NCBI RefSeq assembly: GCF_018476525.1
Contig: NZ_JAHCST010000013.1
Span: 168,486-222,648, forward strand
Length of the DNA: 54,163 bases
Direction: 5' to 3'
Source of the DNA: Acrocarpospora catenulata
Lineage (GTDB): Bacteria > Actinomycetota > Actinomycetes > Streptosporangiales > Streptosporangiaceae
Shown here one piece after another: positions 13,804 through 23,112 of this stretch. Positions within the stretch are counted from its first letter, which is position 1. Each line of letters opens with the position of its first letter. A program made the translations under genes and the position numbers. The notes below the pieces were generated by a model. It had not been told where the DNA came from, ran no database searches, and saw only the letters and a program-made list of their open reading frames with translations.

Positions 13804-13964
13804 CCTCTATTTCCATGGTCATTTACGGCTCGATCTGCCGTCTTGACGCCGGTGAGCCGATGACCGGTCCCGGATAACAGCGGCAATGCCGTCATTTGAC
13901 GGGATATTCGGCCAGGTCTCGCTGCTACAACAACTCCACCTGCCAAGTCGCTGTGGAGGTGACC

Positions 13965-16130
13965 ATGGACCGGGCCGCGAAAATCGAGGCCATCCGCGCC
14001 CGCCGGGCGGAACGCGCAACCGAGACCGAGGCGCTGGGCGACCACCTGGCCGACGTCGAGGCCGCGCTGCTCACCCTCGACCGGGTACGGGCGGATCTGC
14101 TGTCCCGGGTGGTGGGCGACGAGCGGGGCGAACAGCTGGCGACGCTCGGCCCGGTGCTGCGCGAGCTGTCCGACAAGGTCGCGCTGGAACGTGCCGCGAT
14201 CAACCGGGCGCTGGCCAGGCTCCGCCGGATGACGTTGAACATCGGGGTGGTGGGCCGGGCCAGGCAGGGCAAGAGTCGCCTGCTGCAGAGCCTGACCGGC
14301 CTCACCAAACGGGAGATCCCGGACGGCTCCGGCGGCTTCTGCACCGGCGTGCCCAGCGCCATCAAACACTTCGACGGCCCCACCCACGCCGACGTCTACC
14401 ACCACTCCGAGCGTTCCTTCGTGGACGAGGTGATCGGCCCCTACTACGACCTGTACGGCCTGGGCGCCCGCCCGGTCTCCCCGCGCGCGTTCGGCGCCCA
14501 CCGGTTGCCGGAGCTGCCCCCCGACCGCGCCGACGACCCCAGGGCCGCCAGCGCGTACGGCCACCTGCGCGCCTACCACCAGGCGTTCCCCGCGTACGCC
14601 GAGCTGATCGGGCGGCCCTCCCCCGAGCGTGTGGGTCCCGACCAGATCCGCAGGTACGTGGCCCAGGACGACCTGGACGGCACTCCGCAGCACACCTTCC
14701 GCGCGGTCCGCCGGGTGGAGATCGCCACCACCTTCGCGCAGAGCGACCTGACCGGGGTGGCGGTCATCGACCTGCCAGGGCTCGGCGACACCAACCTCGG
14801 GGACTCCCGGGTGCTGCTGTCCGCCCTGCAGGACGACGTGGACCTGGTGCTGTTCGTACGCCGCCCCAACCCCGAGGGGGACGGGATCCACGACGTCGAC
14901 GTCGAGCTCTACGGGACCGCGCAGAGCGCGCTGCCGGAGATCCCGATGGAGAAACGCTCCTTCGTCATCCTCAACCACCGCAAGAGCCTGGACCAGGACA
15001 ACCTGGCCAGCGCCCAGGCCCTCCAGTCCGAACTCGCCAAGTCCCCGATCCGGGTGGCGGGAACCCACATCGCCGACTGTTCGGCGACCGACGAGGTGAT
15101 CGCCGCCTTCGACCCGATCGTGGACTACCTGGTGGCCAACATCGCCTCCCTGGACGAGACGATCATCAGCGAGCGAGCGCGCCGGACCGCCGAGATCGAC
15201 CAGGAGATCCGGCTGCTGCTGGCGCAGTCGAGCATCCTGACCTCCTTCTCCCGGCCGGGCGACCTGTCGCACCTGACCTTCCAGGAGCTGTTCCGGGAGA
15301 CCTACGAGAACCTGGCGGGCGCCCTGGAGAACCTGGTCCTGGGGTTCCGGAAGGAGCGGGAGGCCCCGGACAACAAGCTGAGCCAGGCCACGGCGGAGGT
15401 GATCCGGCTGGCCAGGGAGCACGACGGCCTGCCCACCCACGACCAGATCGAGCGGCGGCGGGCGGTGCTCGGCTCCTACACCGCCGCCTACAGCGCGCTC
15501 ATGGAGGAGAGCAGGGCGCACCTGTCCCGGCACTTCCTGGAGCTGGACGACGCGCTCGGCGAGACCGTGGGCCACATGTGGGAGCAACTGGCCACCGCGC
15601 TGGGCGAGGCCGGCGAACTCCGCCACCTCAGCGACCGCAAGGGCCGGGACTTCCTGGCCGAGCTGGCCGAGAGCATCGGCCCGGTCCGCCGCGACGGCAC
15701 CAGCGAGATCAGGTACGCGCTGGACATCGTGGTCGGCTTCGGCCTCTCCTACCGGGGTTTCTTCCAGCACCGCATCCGGCCCTGCCTGGACGCCATGTCC
15801 GTGGACCACCCCGAGTTGCTCGGCCTGGACGGCAACCCCACCCCGGGGTCGGTACGGGAGCTGCTCGACATCGCCTACCAGGAGGCCCTGTACCGATGCG
15901 AGACGGCCCTGTCCGGGCTGCTCTCCGAACCCAACAGCGCGGTGTTCGCCATCGTCGAGGAGTTCCGCGACCGGGTGCTGCGCTCGCGCCGCACCCCCGC
16001 CGAGTGGGAGGCCCTCTACTGGCGGTACCGGTCGGAGATCTGGTCGGCCCAGTTCGACGCGCTGGCCGCCGACACCGTGCACCTCCAGCAGTGGAACGAG
16101 GCCATCGAGCGACTGAAGGCGATGCTATGA
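13965..16130 (+). CDS. Dynamin-like large GTPase
   Basis: Protein of 721 residues. A charged helical N-terminus (1-90) precedes a GTPase core: Walker A GRARQGKS at 97-104, the G3-type DLPG at 269-272 and a G4-like NHRK at 337-340 in place of NKxD. The rest is long, mostly helical and coiled-coil-like, as in dynamin-family proteins that remodel or sense membranes. The start is fixed by GGAGGT four bases before the ATG at 13965, and an in-frame upstream start lacks a ribosome site. The stop overlaps the next gene by ATGA. Catalytic GTP use is likely; the biological role is unknown (see findings). Confidence 0.75.
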   Translation: MDRAAKIEAIRARRAERATETEALGDHLADVEAALLTLDRVRADLLSRVVGDERGEQLATLGPVLRELSDKVALERAAINRALARLRRMTLNIGVVGRARQGKSRLLQSLTGLTKREIPDGSGGFCTGVPSAIKHFDGPTHADVYHHSERSFVDEVIGPYYDLYGLGARPVSPRAFGAHRLPELPPDRADDPRAASAYGHLRAYHQAFPAYAELIGRPSPERVGPDQIRRYVAQDDLDGTPQHTFRAVRRVEIATTFAQSDLTGVAVIDLPGLGDTNLGDSRVLLSALQDDVDLVLFVRRPNPEGDGIHDVDVELYGTAQSALPEIPMEKRSFVILNHRKSLDQDNLASAQALQSELAKSPIRVAGTHIADCSATDEVIAAFDPIVDYLVANIASLDETIISERARRTAEIDQEIRLLLAQSSILTSFSRPGDLSHLTFQELFRETYENLAGALENLVLGFRKEREAPDNKLSQATAEVIRLAREHDGLPTHDQIERRRAVLGSYTAAYSALMEESRAHLSRHFLELDDALGETVGHMWEQLATALGEAGELRHLSDRKGRDFLAELAESIGPVRRDGTSEIRYALDIVVGFGLSYRGFFQHRIRPCLDAMSVDHPELLGLDGNPTPGSVRELLDIAYQEALYRCETALSGLLSEPNSAVFAIVEEFRDRVLRSRRTPAEWEALYWRYRSEIWSAQFDALAADTVHLQQWNEAIERLKAML

Positions 16131-17146
16131 GAAGTGAGGATTTCCGCCGTGCCTTTCTCGGGGCCCGCGGCGAGGAGGCCATCTTCGACGTGACCATGCT
16201 GGGCGCGGTCGGGGTGGGCAAGACCACGCTGCTGGCCTCGATGTACGAGCGGTTCCGCTGGGTGATCGGCAATGTGGATCTGTCGGTGATGCCGGACGAC
16301 CACGGCACCTCGGTGGTGCTCCAGGCGTACATCAACGACCTGCAACGGATCACCAACTCGGTGCGCGCCACCGACGGGCTGGCCGGGACCGCGGACATGC
16401 GGGAGTACCTGTTCCAGGTGGGCAGGAAGGCCCGGCCGCCGCTGTTCGGCCTGCGCTTCACCGACTATCCGGGCAAGTACCTGATCAGCCCGGACGCGGA
16501 CGGCGGCGGCAAGTTCGACCGGGCCATGCGCCGGGCGGACGTGATCGTGGTGGCCATCGACACCCCGGCCCTGATGGAACGGGACGGCCGCTACCACGAG
16601 TTCGTGAACGCCCCCGGCGTCGTCATCGACACCATCATCCGGATGACCGAGGTGGCCACGCCCCGGCTGATCCTGCTCGCGCCGCTGCGCTGCGAGCGCT
16701 GGATGGGCTCGGCGTCGGACGCCCGCGAGCTGGCCGACCGGGTCACCCGGGCCTACCGGCCGCTGCTCGGCCAGATCGGCGCCGGGGACGCGCGGATCCG
16801 CACGGCCTGCGTGCTGACCCCGGTGCAGACCGTCGGCTCGGTGGTGTTCACCCGCCTGGAGGAGGACTCGACCGGCCACCCGATCTTCCACTTCAAGCTC
16901 AGGAAGGCCGGGTTGAAGTACGCGCCGCAGGACACCGACCAGTTGCTCCGGTACACGCTGCGGTTCCTCGTCAACAAGTACCGCCGGGTCGGGCGGGGGG
17001 CCTTCCGCACCATCCTGGAGCAGGTGATCGGCACCGACCAGGCGCTGACCAGCGCCATCCAGGAGTTCTCCCGGGACTGCAAGACCTCCGACGGGTTCGC
17101 CGTGCTCCAGGACCATCCGCTGCTGCTGGCCGGGCACCCGTCATGA
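16127..17146 (+). CDS. P-loop TRAFAC-type GTPase (double-GTPase-2-like)
   Basis: Protein of 339 residues with a Walker A GAVGVGKT at 26-33 and a G3-like DYPG at 113-116. A hydrophobic beta strand (ADVIVVAID) and a possible specificity region (LILLAPLRCERW) follow. From memory it resembles the small actinobacterial TRAFAC GTPases called DO-GTPase2, which occur in NTP-dependent conflict-type gene clusters. It overlaps both neighbours by ATGA, so all three proteins are made in coupled fashion. It has no membrane segment. It likely works as the partner switch of the large GTPase. Confidence 0.7.
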   Translation: MRSEDFRRAFLGARGEEAIFDVTMLGAVGVGKTTLLASMYERFRWVIGNVDLSVMPDDHGTSVVLQAYINDLQRITNSVRATDGLAGTADMREYLFQVGRKARPPLFGLRFTDYPGKYLISPDADGGGKFDRAMRRADVIVVAIDTPALMERDGRYHEFVNAPGVVIDTIIRMTEVATPRLILLAPLRCERWMGSASDARELADRVTRAYRPLLGQIGAGDARIRTACVLTPVQTVGSVVFTRLEEDSTGHPIFHFKLRKAGLKYAPQDTDQLLRYTLRFLVNKYRRVGRGAFRTILEQVIGTDQALTSAIQEFSRDCKTSDGFAVLQDHPLLLAGHPS

Positions 17147-18429
17147 GCGTGTCCTGGCAGGTGCGCTCGCGCGGGCGGCGCGCGGACGAGGACTACGAGT
17201 GGGCGCCGCTGGGCGGGCCGCCGCTCGACGTGATCTCCGTCCTGGAGGCGGGGTTCCAGGGCACGCCGTTCCGGAAGATCGTCGATGACGAGAAGCCGGG
17301 CCTGCTGCTCATGGACGGCCCGGGCGAGCGGACCGTGCTGCTGGTCACCGGGTTGGTCCCGGCCGGGAACCCCACCGACTCCCGAAGGCGCCCGATCCGG
17401 GCGATCCTGGTCGGCGTCGGCGGGCCCGGGGACCGTGCCGAGCTGGTCGCCGTCGCCACGCGCGCCCTGCGCGGCACACTCGACGCCACCCTGCCCCTGG
17501 CGTACGGACCGATCAGCACGGGCGGGTTCACCCCCGACCCGGCCGCGTGGCGCGCGTACCTGGACGGGCCGCGCGAGCAGGCGCCCGGTGGCGGCACCGT
17601 CGAAGAGGGCCGGCGGCTGGACCCCGACACCGTGGCGTACCGGGAGCGGGTCGCCGGGGACCTGCTCCGCCTGGACGCGGCGAACGGGTGGCCGCGGCTG
17701 CGGGGGCGGCTCATCGTGCTGCGGACCACGCTGCTCGGCAAGCCCGAGATCCACAAGCTCAACATCTGGCGCTGCCTGTCCGACGTCACCGACACCAGCC
17801 TCCATCCCGCGGACCCTAACCCCGCCGCCGCCCTCGCCGACACGCTGACCAGGACCGTCGGCGACGCCGCGGCAACGGCCGCCCGCCGTCTGGGCCTGAG
17901 CCGCTTCCTGATCGCGGGCGCGGCTCTGGTGGCGATCGTCGCCGTCCCCATCGTCATCAACGCGACCAGCGGACCTGAGGAGACGCCGTCCCCGGGCACA
18001 CCGCCCGCCACCCGGCCGCCGGCGAGCCCGCCCTCGAACTGGGCGAGGCCGGGCACCTGGGCCTACACCCCGCCGGTCGTCGTCCCGCGCAGCCCACGAC
18101 CCGGACAGCCGGTCACCGCGACCTGGCTGGTCATCAACACCGGCACCACCCCGTGGCGGGATGTCGTACTGCGCGCGGAGCCGGCCGGGGGCCAGGACGC
18201 GCCCCCGATCTGCGACACCCTGAAGCCCACGATCTCCGTCCCCGACCTGGCCCCCGGTGAGATGCATCCGGTCTCCTTCCCCTTCACCGCGCTACCGGAC
18301 GCGAAGAAGAAGTGCACGACAATCTGGCAGCTGGTGCGCTCGGACGGCGCGCCGCTGCCCGCCTACAGCGCGGATCCGGGCGGCGTTCCCGGGCCCCGTC
18401 TCGCGATGAGCGTGACCACCGAGGGCTGA
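17143..18429 (+). CDS. Single-pass membrane protein with a cytosolic domain and NBR1-like Ig domain
   Basis: Protein of 428 residues. Residues 1-250 form a soluble alpha/beta domain I do not recognise. One membrane helix lies at about 255-273. A Pro-rich spacer follows, and then an outside domain (about 310-425) with the pattern TWLVINTGTTPW, VPDLAPGE and WQLVRSDG. That pattern matches the four-tryptophan NBR1 Ig-like fold found in many actinobacterial surface proteins. It is coupled by ATGA to the two GTPases, so it is the likely membrane anchor or sensor of that system. The topology (N-terminus in) is inferred from the linker composition. Confidence 0.65.
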   Translation: MSVSWQVRSRGRRADEDYEWAPLGGPPLDVISVLEAGFQGTPFRKIVDDEKPGLLLMDGPGERTVLLVTGLVPAGNPTDSRRRPIRAILVGVGGPGDRAELVAVATRALRGTLDATLPLAYGPISTGGFTPDPAAWRAYLDGPREQAPGGGTVEEGRRLDPDTVAYRERVAGDLLRLDAANGWPRLRGRLIVLRTTLLGKPEIHKLNIWRCLSDVTDTSLHPADPNPAAALADTLTRTVGDAAATAARRLGLSRFLIAGAALVAIVAVPIVINATSGPEETPSPGTPPATRPPASPPSNWARPGTWAYTPPVVVPRSPRPGQPVTATWLVINTGTTPWRDVVLRAEPAGGQDAPPICDTLKPTISVPDLAPGEMHPVSFPFTALPDAKKKCTTIWQLVRSDGAPLPAYSADPGGVPGPRLAMSVTTEG

Positions 18430-21833: not shown

Positions 21834-21906
21834 TTTCCGTTGCAGAAGGGTCACGCTCCGCATATTCGGGGAGTGGGGTGGTCGGTGGCGTGCGATCTTG
21901 CCGTAC

Positions 21907-23112
21907 ATGATCGGTTACGCCGTTCTGGACCTGGAGACGACGGGGCTGCGGACCTCGTGGGGCGATCGGGTGATCGAGGTGGGGGTGGTGCACCTCGATC
22001 CGGGCGGGGAGGTCACCGGGGAGTGGAGCACGCTCGTCAATCCGGAGCGTGATCTGGGGCCGCAGCATGTGCACGGGATCACGGCGGCCGACATCCGGCA
22101 CGCACCGACATTTCTGGAAATAGCGGGAGAACTGACGGGGCTACTCGAGGGGCGGGTGCCGGTGGCGCACAACCTGCGCTTCGACCTCAATTTTCTCCAG
22201 TACGAGTACGACCGCATCGGGATCCCAACCCTGCCGACCAGGCATCTCGGCATCTGCACGATGACCGAGGCGGCCACCTATCTGCCGTACGCGCCCCGGA
22301 ACCTGGCCGGATGTTGCGCGGTGGCGGACATCCCTTTGAACGGGCACCATGACGCGCTGATCGACGCTCGGGCCGCCGCCGGCCTGCTCAAGCATTACCT
22401 CGCCAAGGCGGGATCCGCCTGGCACCCCGCCCTGCGCGACGCCGCCGCCCTCCGCTGGCCGGCGCCGCCGATGAGGGACGCCGCCTGGGTACGGCGGGGC
22501 GTGTCCGCCGAGCGGGACGGCCACTTCCTGGCCCGGCTGCTCGACCGTCTCCCCCGGGCTCCCGAACCCGCCCAGGCCGACGCGTACCTCGCCTTACTCG
22601 ACCAGGTGCTGCTGGACCACCACATCTCGGCCACCGAAGCGGACGCCCTGGTCGAGCTGGCCAACGATCTCGGCCTGGGGCGGGCCGATGTGGAACGGCT
22701 GCACCACGACTACCTGGCCGCGCTCGGTGCGGCCGCCCGGGCCGACGGGGTCGTCACCGAGCGGGAACGGCGCGAGATCAGCCTGGTGGCCGAGCTGCTC
22801 GGCCTGCCACCCGGTACCGCCGCCGAGGCGCTCGCCGCGTCCGCCGGGGCGGTGGCTCGGCGGCCCCGGTTCGAGTTGAACCCCGGTGACCTGGTCGTCT
22901 TCACCGGCGAGATGGACGGGGGACGGGAGAGCTGGGAGGAACGCGCGCGGCATGCCTCGTACGTGCCGCATCCGTACGTCACCAAGAAAGTGCGGCTGGT
23001 GATCGCCGCCGACCCCGACACGCTCTCCGGCAAAGCCAGGAAAGCCCGCACCTATGGAATTCCCATCATTACTCCTACCGCTTTCGCCGGAATGCTCGAC
23101 CGCGCGCGATAG
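21907..23112 (+). CDS. DEDDh exonuclease with TerB-like and BRCT domains
   Basis: Protein of 401 residues. The N-terminal 170 residues are a DnaQ-type 3'-5' exonuclease with DLETTG (Exo I), HNLRFDLNF (Exo II) and HHDALIDA (Exo III), so the four acidic residues and the His are present. Residues about 235-310 include ARADGVVTERERREISLVAE, a TerB-like helical segment. The C-terminus (about 325-398) fits a BRCT domain (GDLVVFTGEM...GIPIITPTAFAGML). The protein probably trims DNA ends in repair. The ATG at 21907 is chosen over an in-frame TTG at 21898. A TTA codon occurs at 22594. Confidence 0.85.
   Translation: MIGYAVLDLETTGLRTSWGDRVIEVGVVHLDPGGEVTGEWSTLVNPERDLGPQHVHGITAADIRHAPTFLEIAGELTGLLEGRVPVAHNLRFDLNFLQYEYDRIGIPTLPTRHLGICTMTEAATYLPYAPRNLAGCCAVADIPLNGHHDALIDARAAAGLLKHYLAKAGSAWHPALRDAAALRWPAPPMRDAAWVRRGVSAERDGHFLARLLDRLPRAPEPAQADAYLALLDQVLLDHHISATEADALVELANDLGLGRADVERLHHDYLAALGAAARADGVVTERERREISLVAELLGLPPGTAAEALAASAGAVARRPRFELNPGDLVVFTGEMDGGRESWEERARHASYVPHPYVTKKVRLVIAADPDTLSGKARKARTYGIPIITPTAFAGMLDRAR

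Follow-up and report, generated by a model that had tools for sequence, protein, structure and literature searches.

A conserved three-gene module pairing a dynamin-like GTPase with a second GTPase and a membrane protein in Acrocarpospora catenulata and Cyanobacteriota

A stretch of 54,163 nucleotides from Acrocarpospora catenulata, referred to below as the window, carries three overlapping genes, A, B and C, that encode a bacterial dynamin-like GTPase, a second P-loop GTPase and a membrane protein with one predicted helix. Judged by gene order and homology, A-B-C is a real, conserved, fixed-order three-gene module that recurs across several phyla. In our reading, to which we give roughly an even chance (probability about 0.5), the trio would be a horizontally spreading membrane module in which a receptor, C, and a switch, B, position the dynamin A, the likely trigger being membrane or envelope damage. 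A sequence-only reading of the same DNA had singled out these genes as a possible system; its coordinates, the protein lengths of 721, 339 and 428 residues and the ATGA at both junctions were all correct on re-reading, and its core, a membrane anchor plus two GTPases, is kept here as a conserved module. The genes and their junctions are laid out as follows.

13955..13959, + strand: GGAGG, Shine-Dalgarno-like, 5 bases ahead of the gene A ATG (sequence reading)
13965..16130, + strand: gene A, 721-residue bacterial dynamin-like GTPase (open reading frame, Pfam, AlphaFold2 model, PDB fold matches)
16127..16130, + strand: ATGA shared by the A stop and the B start (sequence reading)
16127..17146, + strand: gene B, 339-residue P-loop GTPase, divergent relative of DO-GTPase2 (open reading frame, Pfam, profile comparison)
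17143..17146, + strand: ATGA shared by the B stop and the C start (sequence reading)
17143..18429, + strand: gene C, 428-residue membrane protein with one predicted helix (open reading frame, structure prediction)

When GTDB contigs were scanned using only an A profile, 183 relatives came up, and the counts on A loci refer to the best 80 of these 183. Judged by record title, most of them (66/80) are cyanobacterial, with 32-39% identity. The remaining 14 comprise three Acrocarpospora and two Nonomuraea, with 51-75% identity, and metagenome-assembled genomes labelled Chloroflexaceae (2), Ktedonobacteraceae, Desulfohalobiaceae (2), Thiotrichaceae, Bacillota, Hyphomicrobiales and Acidimicrobiia. 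B and C were recognised with hidden Markov models (HMMs). Among the 72 loci whose sequence extends 2 kb or more beyond A, 54 showed A-B-C in order, 17 A alone and one an odd arrangement, while the eight loci with less than 2 kb downstream gave one A-B-C, one A-B and six A only. Every locus with both a recognised B and 2 kb or more beyond A also carried C (54/54). From the end of A to the start of B the median distance is 19 bases (56 gaps; starts were taken from the longest open reading frame, which makes the figure approximate). The same picture emerged from the other end of the module: a search that started from C in 292 cyanobacterial genomes gave 25 matches, of which three weak ones (G649, G790 and G828) were dropped, and in all 22 remaining, strong genomes C adjoins B. 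Gene A is visible in 21 of them; in G648 the fetched stretch stops before the position of A. The search was centred on one of these 22 genomes, G595, whose trio was known beforehand. In each of six whole trio-carrying genomes, C matches at 1-2 places only. The concern attached to the sequence-only reading, that a neighbourhood search might find the three genes rarely together, is answered by these counts.

That reading had suggested such a search across Actinomycetota; the carriers found are mainly cyanobacterial. Within the same order as the window, A matched in 8/200 sampled genomes, own genome included. One of the eight, a match in G173 over 103 residues with one stop (E 4e-4), was set aside as a chance hit on the P-loop. 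Among 396 Actinomycetota genomes only the own genome was strong for A, six others giving short matches in the P-loop area (E 1e-4 to 8e-4). We therefore rejected the idea that the trio is an actinobacterial speciality, given strong C in 22/292 cyanobacterial genomes. A congener keeps A-B-C with the immunoglobulin (Ig)-like domain of C (L016). Beyond the main family, a deeply diverged sister group from the same taxonomic family as the window, made up of four loci (L017-L020), has a full-length A at 23-25% identity followed by B and a third gene, an arrangement we call A-B-C' and which was found in 4/4; profile comparison makes B' homologous to B (E 2e-30) and indicates that C' shares the N-terminal domain of C (E 4e-8). 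L021, with the order B-C-A and weak similarity, was left outside the A-B-C count.

Several variations on the arrangement were seen along the way. Two Calothrix loci carry A-B-C-C-C-B arrays (L061, 12271-17369; L071, 12283-17255); the third C of the L061 array ends in a peptidoglycan-binding domain, and the third C of L071 looks alike. Five loci (L031, L054, L068, L094 and L102) have a second full or partial A-family gene near the trio, which might make hetero-dynamin pairs. In three sister loci (L018, 12963-13349; L019, 12954-13460; L020, 13923-14450) and on a Streptomyces plasmid (L267, 10209-10628) the third gene has a fourth, small one behind it, and none of these four proteins matched Pfam. 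In the window itself an exonuclease-like protein is encoded 3.5 kb downstream of the trio (21898-23112); by eye it has a DEDD-like start and perhaps TerB-like and BRCT-like parts.

The three genes appear to be inherited jointly, since over the 50 loci with A, B and C called in order their pairwise distances correlate at r 0.86-0.89, with a shuffled maximum of 0.20; such a correlation alone is not proof of physical contact. C evolves fastest, with a median identity of 28% compared with 50% for A and 40% for B. In a tree of A built by a quick method that gave long-branch warnings (79 rows, that is 86 loci minus eight near-copies or too-distant sequences plus the window, with proteins over 900 residues trimmed to their last 735), the window, Acrocarpospora and Nonomuraea form one starred clade. 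Lines with A only are scattered over this tree, which implies seven changes, at least four of them forced by starred branches.

The trio looks accessory and mobile, because it has plasmid copies and its neighbours differ between congeners. A is found in 10 plasmid-collection records, including an 11.9-Mb replicon of Nonomuraea gerenzanensis. On two plasmids, those of Aulosira laxa and Nostoc carneum (L086), A was confirmed to be accompanied by B and C; the Aulosira laxa plasmid is typed as conjugative, and the trio lies one small gene behind a TrsK-like gene. On the Streptomyces plasmid A and B were recognised by HMM, and the third protein starts like C' of L018-L020, beyond the reach of the C HMM. 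In the congener G063, relatives of the genes that flank the window trio lie on contigs other than that of the trio, and in G145, a genome without A, they are split between two contigs.

Protein A, going by its AlphaFold2 model (mean predicted local distance difference test score, pLDDT, 90), has a G domain plus a helical bundle and stalk, the fold of bacterial dynamins. In sequence it passes Pfam Dynamin_N marginally (27.6 bits against a cut-off of 27). The best PDB fold matches of the model are SynDLP (E 3e-13), IniA (4e-12) and BDLP (6e-12), with LeoA also among the 50 matches listed. Whole-chain superposition is poor: TM-scores against SynDLP, IniA and BDLP are low (0.24-0.32), which would reflect differing domain angles, and identity to the structures of bacterial dynamin-like proteins (DLPs) is 8-16% in the structural alignments listed. 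None of SynDLP, IniA, BDLP and LeoA appeared among the sequence or sequence-profile matches of A, including a PDB profile search, in which the best match, confined to the P-loop region, was to the immunity-related GTPase irgb10 (E 9e-4). A thus shares with the bacterial DLPs (SynDLP, IniA, BDLP/NosDLP and LeoA) a fold with a G domain and a long helical part, and differs from them in lacking a sequence-level match, in its low structural identity and in having dedicated partners, B and C. Since a candidate membrane segment was seen by hydropathy in only 3/89 A proteins, A is most likely soluble.

The motifs that the sequence-only reading had picked out in A (GRARQGKS, DLPG and NHRK) and in B (GAVGVGKT) are all present. 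Those of A were placed on an alignment of 53 sequences (52 of 74 A plus the window):

14253..14276, + strand: P-loop GRARQGKS of A, residues 97-104; G97, G102, K103 and S104 invariant in the 53 sequences
14769..14789, + strand: DLPGLGD of A, residues 269-275; D, P, G, L, G and D invariant, residue 270 mostly M
14973..14984, + strand: NHRK of A, at the position of the fourth motif; only N337 invariant

According to the parts of the survey available to us, nearly all cyanobacterial DLPs covered carry an (L/I)NAL(L/I) extension of the P-loop (PMC5827413). A differs from them: its P-loop reads GKSRLLQSLTG, without that extension, the extended pattern GxxxxGK(S/T)x(L/I)NAL(L/I) has no match in A, and GRARQGKSRLLQSL is conserved across family A.

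Protein B is a GTPase whose best Pfam family is DO-GTPase2, at 20.7 bits in the window against a cut-off of 27 and at 32.8 bits in the congener. Nearly all B sequences (46/49) match DO-GTPase2 at E <=0.1, the best at 1e-13, and the B profile matches the DO-GTPase2 profile with a probability of 91%. The features of B were read from an alignment of 49 sequences (48 of 58 B plus the window):

16202..16225, + strand: P-loop GAVGVGKT of B, residues 26-33
16463..16474, + strand: DYPG of B, residues 113-116, without the DO-GTPase glutamate
16688..16696, + strand: RCE of B, residues 188-190, family motif KCE; C and E invariant in the 49 sequences

Ten DO-GTPase2 relatives from the same order, picked from the top of the match list, served for comparison. 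Their Walker-B glutamate (DxxGE) stands in DP[SA]GE in 7/10 and in D[AT]AGE in 3/10, and T[KR]xD occurs in 10/10; B has DYPG followed by a variable residue and, at the likely place of T[KR]xD, the family motif KCE (RCE in the window). Because both the Walker-B glutamate and T(K/R)xD are missing, B is by the tested features a separate branch and not a member of DO-GTPase2. In the available text of the paper on DO-GTPase2/GAP1 systems, N-terminal zinc ribbons are reported on the GTPase in 60% of DO-GTPase/GAP1 cases (Kaur et al. 2020, PMC7159879); no zinc ribbon precedes the P-loop of window B, where there are 25 residues and no Cys. For HSR1, window B scores 17.2 bits against a cut-off of 21.9, the three relatives tested are also below it, and 40/49 B sequences match at E <=0.1. 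A hydropathy screen was uninformative for B, with 23/64 above the line.

DO-GTPases have been proposed for conflict systems, as far as the available text goes (PMC7159879), and the sequence-only reading had linked the two-GTPase arrangement to such systems. B is indeed, if distantly, related to DO-GTPases, and the GAP1-N2 partner is missing. A membrane link and variable domains are themes common to the trio and the DO-GTPase2/GAP1 systems as described there; the trio differs in having no GAP1-N2 protein, in a B without the Walker-B glutamate and T(K/R)xD, and in an added dynamin. The own genome holds both kinds of GTPase module, the A-B-C trio and, near the start of another contig (C133:153-4703), two DO-GTPase2 matches that flank a GAP1-N2 match. 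C as a GAP1 protein was rejected, as profile comparison with GAP1-N2 gives a probability of 0.1%; GAP1 is neither in window C nor among the Pfam families listed for the 52 C proteins (25 of 92). This comparison rests on GAP1-N2, the GAP1-N1 family having matched 0/149 genomes and no control genome.

Protein C consists of a conserved cytosolic domain, a membrane helix and an outer part that varies greatly, as read from the window protein and from an alignment of 52 sequences (51 of 56 C genes plus the window):

17143..17790, + strand: conserved cytosolic domain of C, residues 1-216, no recognised Pfam family (Pfam, prediction, alignment)
17902..17958, + strand: predicted transmembrane helix of C, residues 254-272 (predicted helix; hydropathy of homologues)
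18097..18351, + strand: NBR1/FW-type Ig domain of C, residues 319-403, predicted outside (Pfam and fold match)

The N-terminal domain is confidently modelled, with a mean pLDDT of at least 85 in every ten-residue block of residues 1-210; W20 and R83 are invariant and T195, W209 and R210 nearly so. No Pfam family was assigned to it in the individually scanned C proteins, and none of the 25 families listed, out of 92 ranked by number of members, matched more than 2/52 C proteins. A profile of C gave ten matches against the PDB at E <=10, the best over the membrane-helix region. The domain is what looks like a new cytosolic domain family. A membrane helix was found by hydropathy in 54/60 C proteins, and beyond it the chain runs for 15 residues or fewer in 19 of the 54, 16-60 in 20, 61-110 in six and more in nine.

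The FW domain has four conserved tryptophans. In window C the outer domain has three (residues 328, 338 and 395), and at what we take to be the position of the fourth there is no Trp. The sole Pfam family in window C is N_BRCA1_IG (residues 319-403, 30.6 bits against a cut-off of 28), and the human NBR1 and ILRUN FW structures (4ole, 6vhi) are among the best fold matches of the modelled outer domain, a likeness that we regard as sound at the level of a predicted structure. The sequence-only description of an NBR1 Ig domain of the four-Trp type is right as to family, with three tryptophans counted and not four. That reading had also named the membrane protein after this domain. Pfam finds N_BRCA1_IG in 2/52 C proteins, those of the window and L023 (from Acrocarpospora corrugata), an Ig-like tail unseen by Pfam is visible by eye in L024 and L027, and the Nonomuraea C (L026) has a short tail. 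Other recognised tails are WD40 (2/52) and peptidoglycan-binding (2/52). Across the homologues, the NBR1/FW Ig domain is accessory and not a core part of C; unlike the domain of NBR1 and ILRUN, to which it is alike in the window and L023, it is predicted to lie outside the cell.

A description of the trio was not found in the literature searched, a scope that left most subscription journals and all bioRxiv preprints aside. Its closest earlier description is the HSR1 clade of cyanobacterial dynamins. In the available part of the study that grouped these dynamins by context, as KGK, HSR1, chaperone and tandem A and B, the dynamin gene of the HSR1 clade precedes one for a GTP-binding protein to which a regulatory role is ascribed (PMC5827413, Jilly et al. 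2018); no membrane third gene is named in that part, and some overlap with family A is possible. Another tandem of cyanobacteria, in which a DLP_helical dynamin adjoins a GTPase that matches MMR_HSR1 strongly (L265, 4043-8273; L266, 3191-6612), is by its Pfam matches a better candidate for the published HSR1 clade than family A. Cyanobacterial dynamins are also treated in PMC10104851, as its available text indicates. In the available text of PMC7016017, dynamins are mentioned only as kin of EHD and sarcalumenin. The word 'dynamin' is absent from the main text of PMC7159879 and of a second DO-GTPase paper, and likewise from that of PMC8195603 and PMC4316618.

We propose that C would sit in the cytoplasmic membrane with its N-terminal domain inside, where it would offer a docking site. 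B would act as a nucleotide switch that reads or loads C, and B and C together would recruit and license A, which would assemble on the membrane where C sits and fuse, seal or constrict it. The variable outer tail of C (FW-Ig, peptidoglycan-binding, WD40, often almost nothing) may tune where and when this happens and would be non-essential, and the likely trigger would be membrane or envelope damage or stress. This receptor-and-switch model is drawn because A is without an evident anchor, C is anchored and often has next to nothing outside, a small GTPase is encoded between the two, and C varies fastest. In eukaryotes, the soluble dynamin Drp1 is brought to the membrane by anchored receptors, Mff and MIEF1/2, in the accounts available to us, and we note this as an analogy, with no homology claimed. 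To our knowledge, the Drp1-receptor pair has no counterpart of B.

Several observations weigh against this proposal. At 17/72 loci A has neither B nor C nearby, and A can therefore act alone or with other partners. On the Stanieria plasmid pSTA7437.02 (L268, 4872-11261), an A-family dynamin has other genes downstream: the places of B and C are taken by a DO-GTPase1-like protein (24.8 bits, cut-off 27) and one of 992 residues, possibly a partner swap that again connects family A with DO-GTPases. As to C, 6/60 proteins are without a helix at the threshold used, and the charge around the helix is higher before than after it in 32/54, which supports an inside N-terminus weakly. Two C hits, L130 and L135, had no B in their stretch; the L130 genome has another C beside B, and L135 lies near a contig end. 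The 50 PDB matches listed for the C model look Ig-type by title, leaving the N-terminal domain unclassified. For this domain we weighed a longin- or roadblock-like strand order, judged from its DSSP string, and make no claim to it. Finally, the canonical N/TKxD motif is in neither A nor B in the family alignments, which bears on nucleotide specificity.

The same genes could instead form an anti-phage or conflict system. Infection would be detected by C (or by B), B would act as the switch, and A would then attack the membrane or seal it, so that lysis is limited or the cell dies; we consider this unlikely, even though several traits fit it. Its spread is patchy (A in 8/200 same-order genomes, one of them chance-like, and strong C in 22/292 cyanobacterial genomes), the trio or A occurs on plasmids, the tails of C vary, and B is kin to the GTPases proposed for conflict systems (PMC7159879). 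DynA, moreover, delays lysis upon phage infection, according to the available text of a review (PMC9950537). Against it, PADLOC returned only a weak LeoBC match for A (E 0.005) and nothing for B or C, and Pfam recognised no toxic effector in the trio. NCBIfam gave no match near cut-offs for any of the three. Enrichment near defence islands, which the sequence-only reading had suggested, was not seen: trio-flanking genes hit 64 PADLOC models and random cyanobacterial genes 137, with 145 proteins each (145 of 277 flanking and 145 of 249 random genes), a coarse comparison as models and not genes were counted and the control, 20 stretches from six cyanobacterial genomes, itself holds Dnd, Cas and Pbe genes. 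On this count a defence-island setting is not supported. The flanks do hold Cas12f-like transposon proteins, Csx1 and single defence genes among the 25 models listed, and Pfam places the 145 genes from the flanks in families such as Uma2, transposase, conjugation, TPR and transport, none in more than three genes (25 of 179 families listed). A phage origin of A was likewise set aside: no relatives of A were found in IMG/VR with query P0001 (600 pattern stretches, 0 confirmed) or, with a cyanobacterial A as query, in phage records. Phage defence is less favoured because the two signs sought, a PADLOC family match and defence-rich flanks, are absent, and a membrane or envelope stress role is favoured because the outer domains recognised in C belong to binding types and a link between bacterial dynamins and protection of the membrane has been described (available parts of PMC9950537 and PMC5827413). 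We infer that membrane stress is the better account of the two.

A housekeeping role, in which C would anchor the module at a septum or membrane for cell division or for the dynamics of thylakoids or vesicles, strikes us as less probable again. In its support, the trio is common in the genus of the window (2/3 sampled genomes, and two more named Acrocarpospora among the best 80), and many carriers belong to what we take to be filamentous genera. DynA and DynB act at Streptomyces sporulation septa and SynDLP is tied to thylakoid dynamics, in the available parts of the sources (PMC5827413, PMC9950537). The trio is, however, found in a minority of genomes in the samples of the order, the phylum and Cyanobacteriota, its neighbours differ between congeners, and it has plasmid copies. 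It is very improbable that B serves only A, as its assembly or regulatory factor, and that C is an unrelated gene carried along on the same transcript: B does lie next to A with short gaps and is better conserved than C, but C was present in 54/54 loci with B and at least 2 kb available, adjoins B in 22/22 strong genomes, and is retained as C' in the sister loci. That the window arrangement is a chance operon, for which we found no point in favour, is ruled out by the A-B-C order conserved over several phyla (54/72 A loci; 22/22 genomes from the C-first search with B beside C).

The trio combines a motor of a known kind, a dynamin, with two dedicated partners, one of them with an apparent new domain family. 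A wider possibility, which we put forward tentatively and hold to be somewhat doubtful, is that it represents a prokaryotic counterpart of receptor-and-switch control of dynamins, in which a membrane receptor (C) and a regulatory GTPase (B) load the dynamin, the whole being a mobile cassette with exchangeable outer sensors. The trio would add a new cytosolic domain family, that of C, and would link dynamins to the DO-GTPase class, which earlier proposals placed in conflict and membrane stress with no motor for membrane remodelling. Experimental tests are practical, because the carriers include named cyanobacterial strains and plasmid-borne copies. Little is understood of how bacterial dynamins are directed to the proper membrane when they are needed, and the trio would offer a genetically simple system in which to test it.

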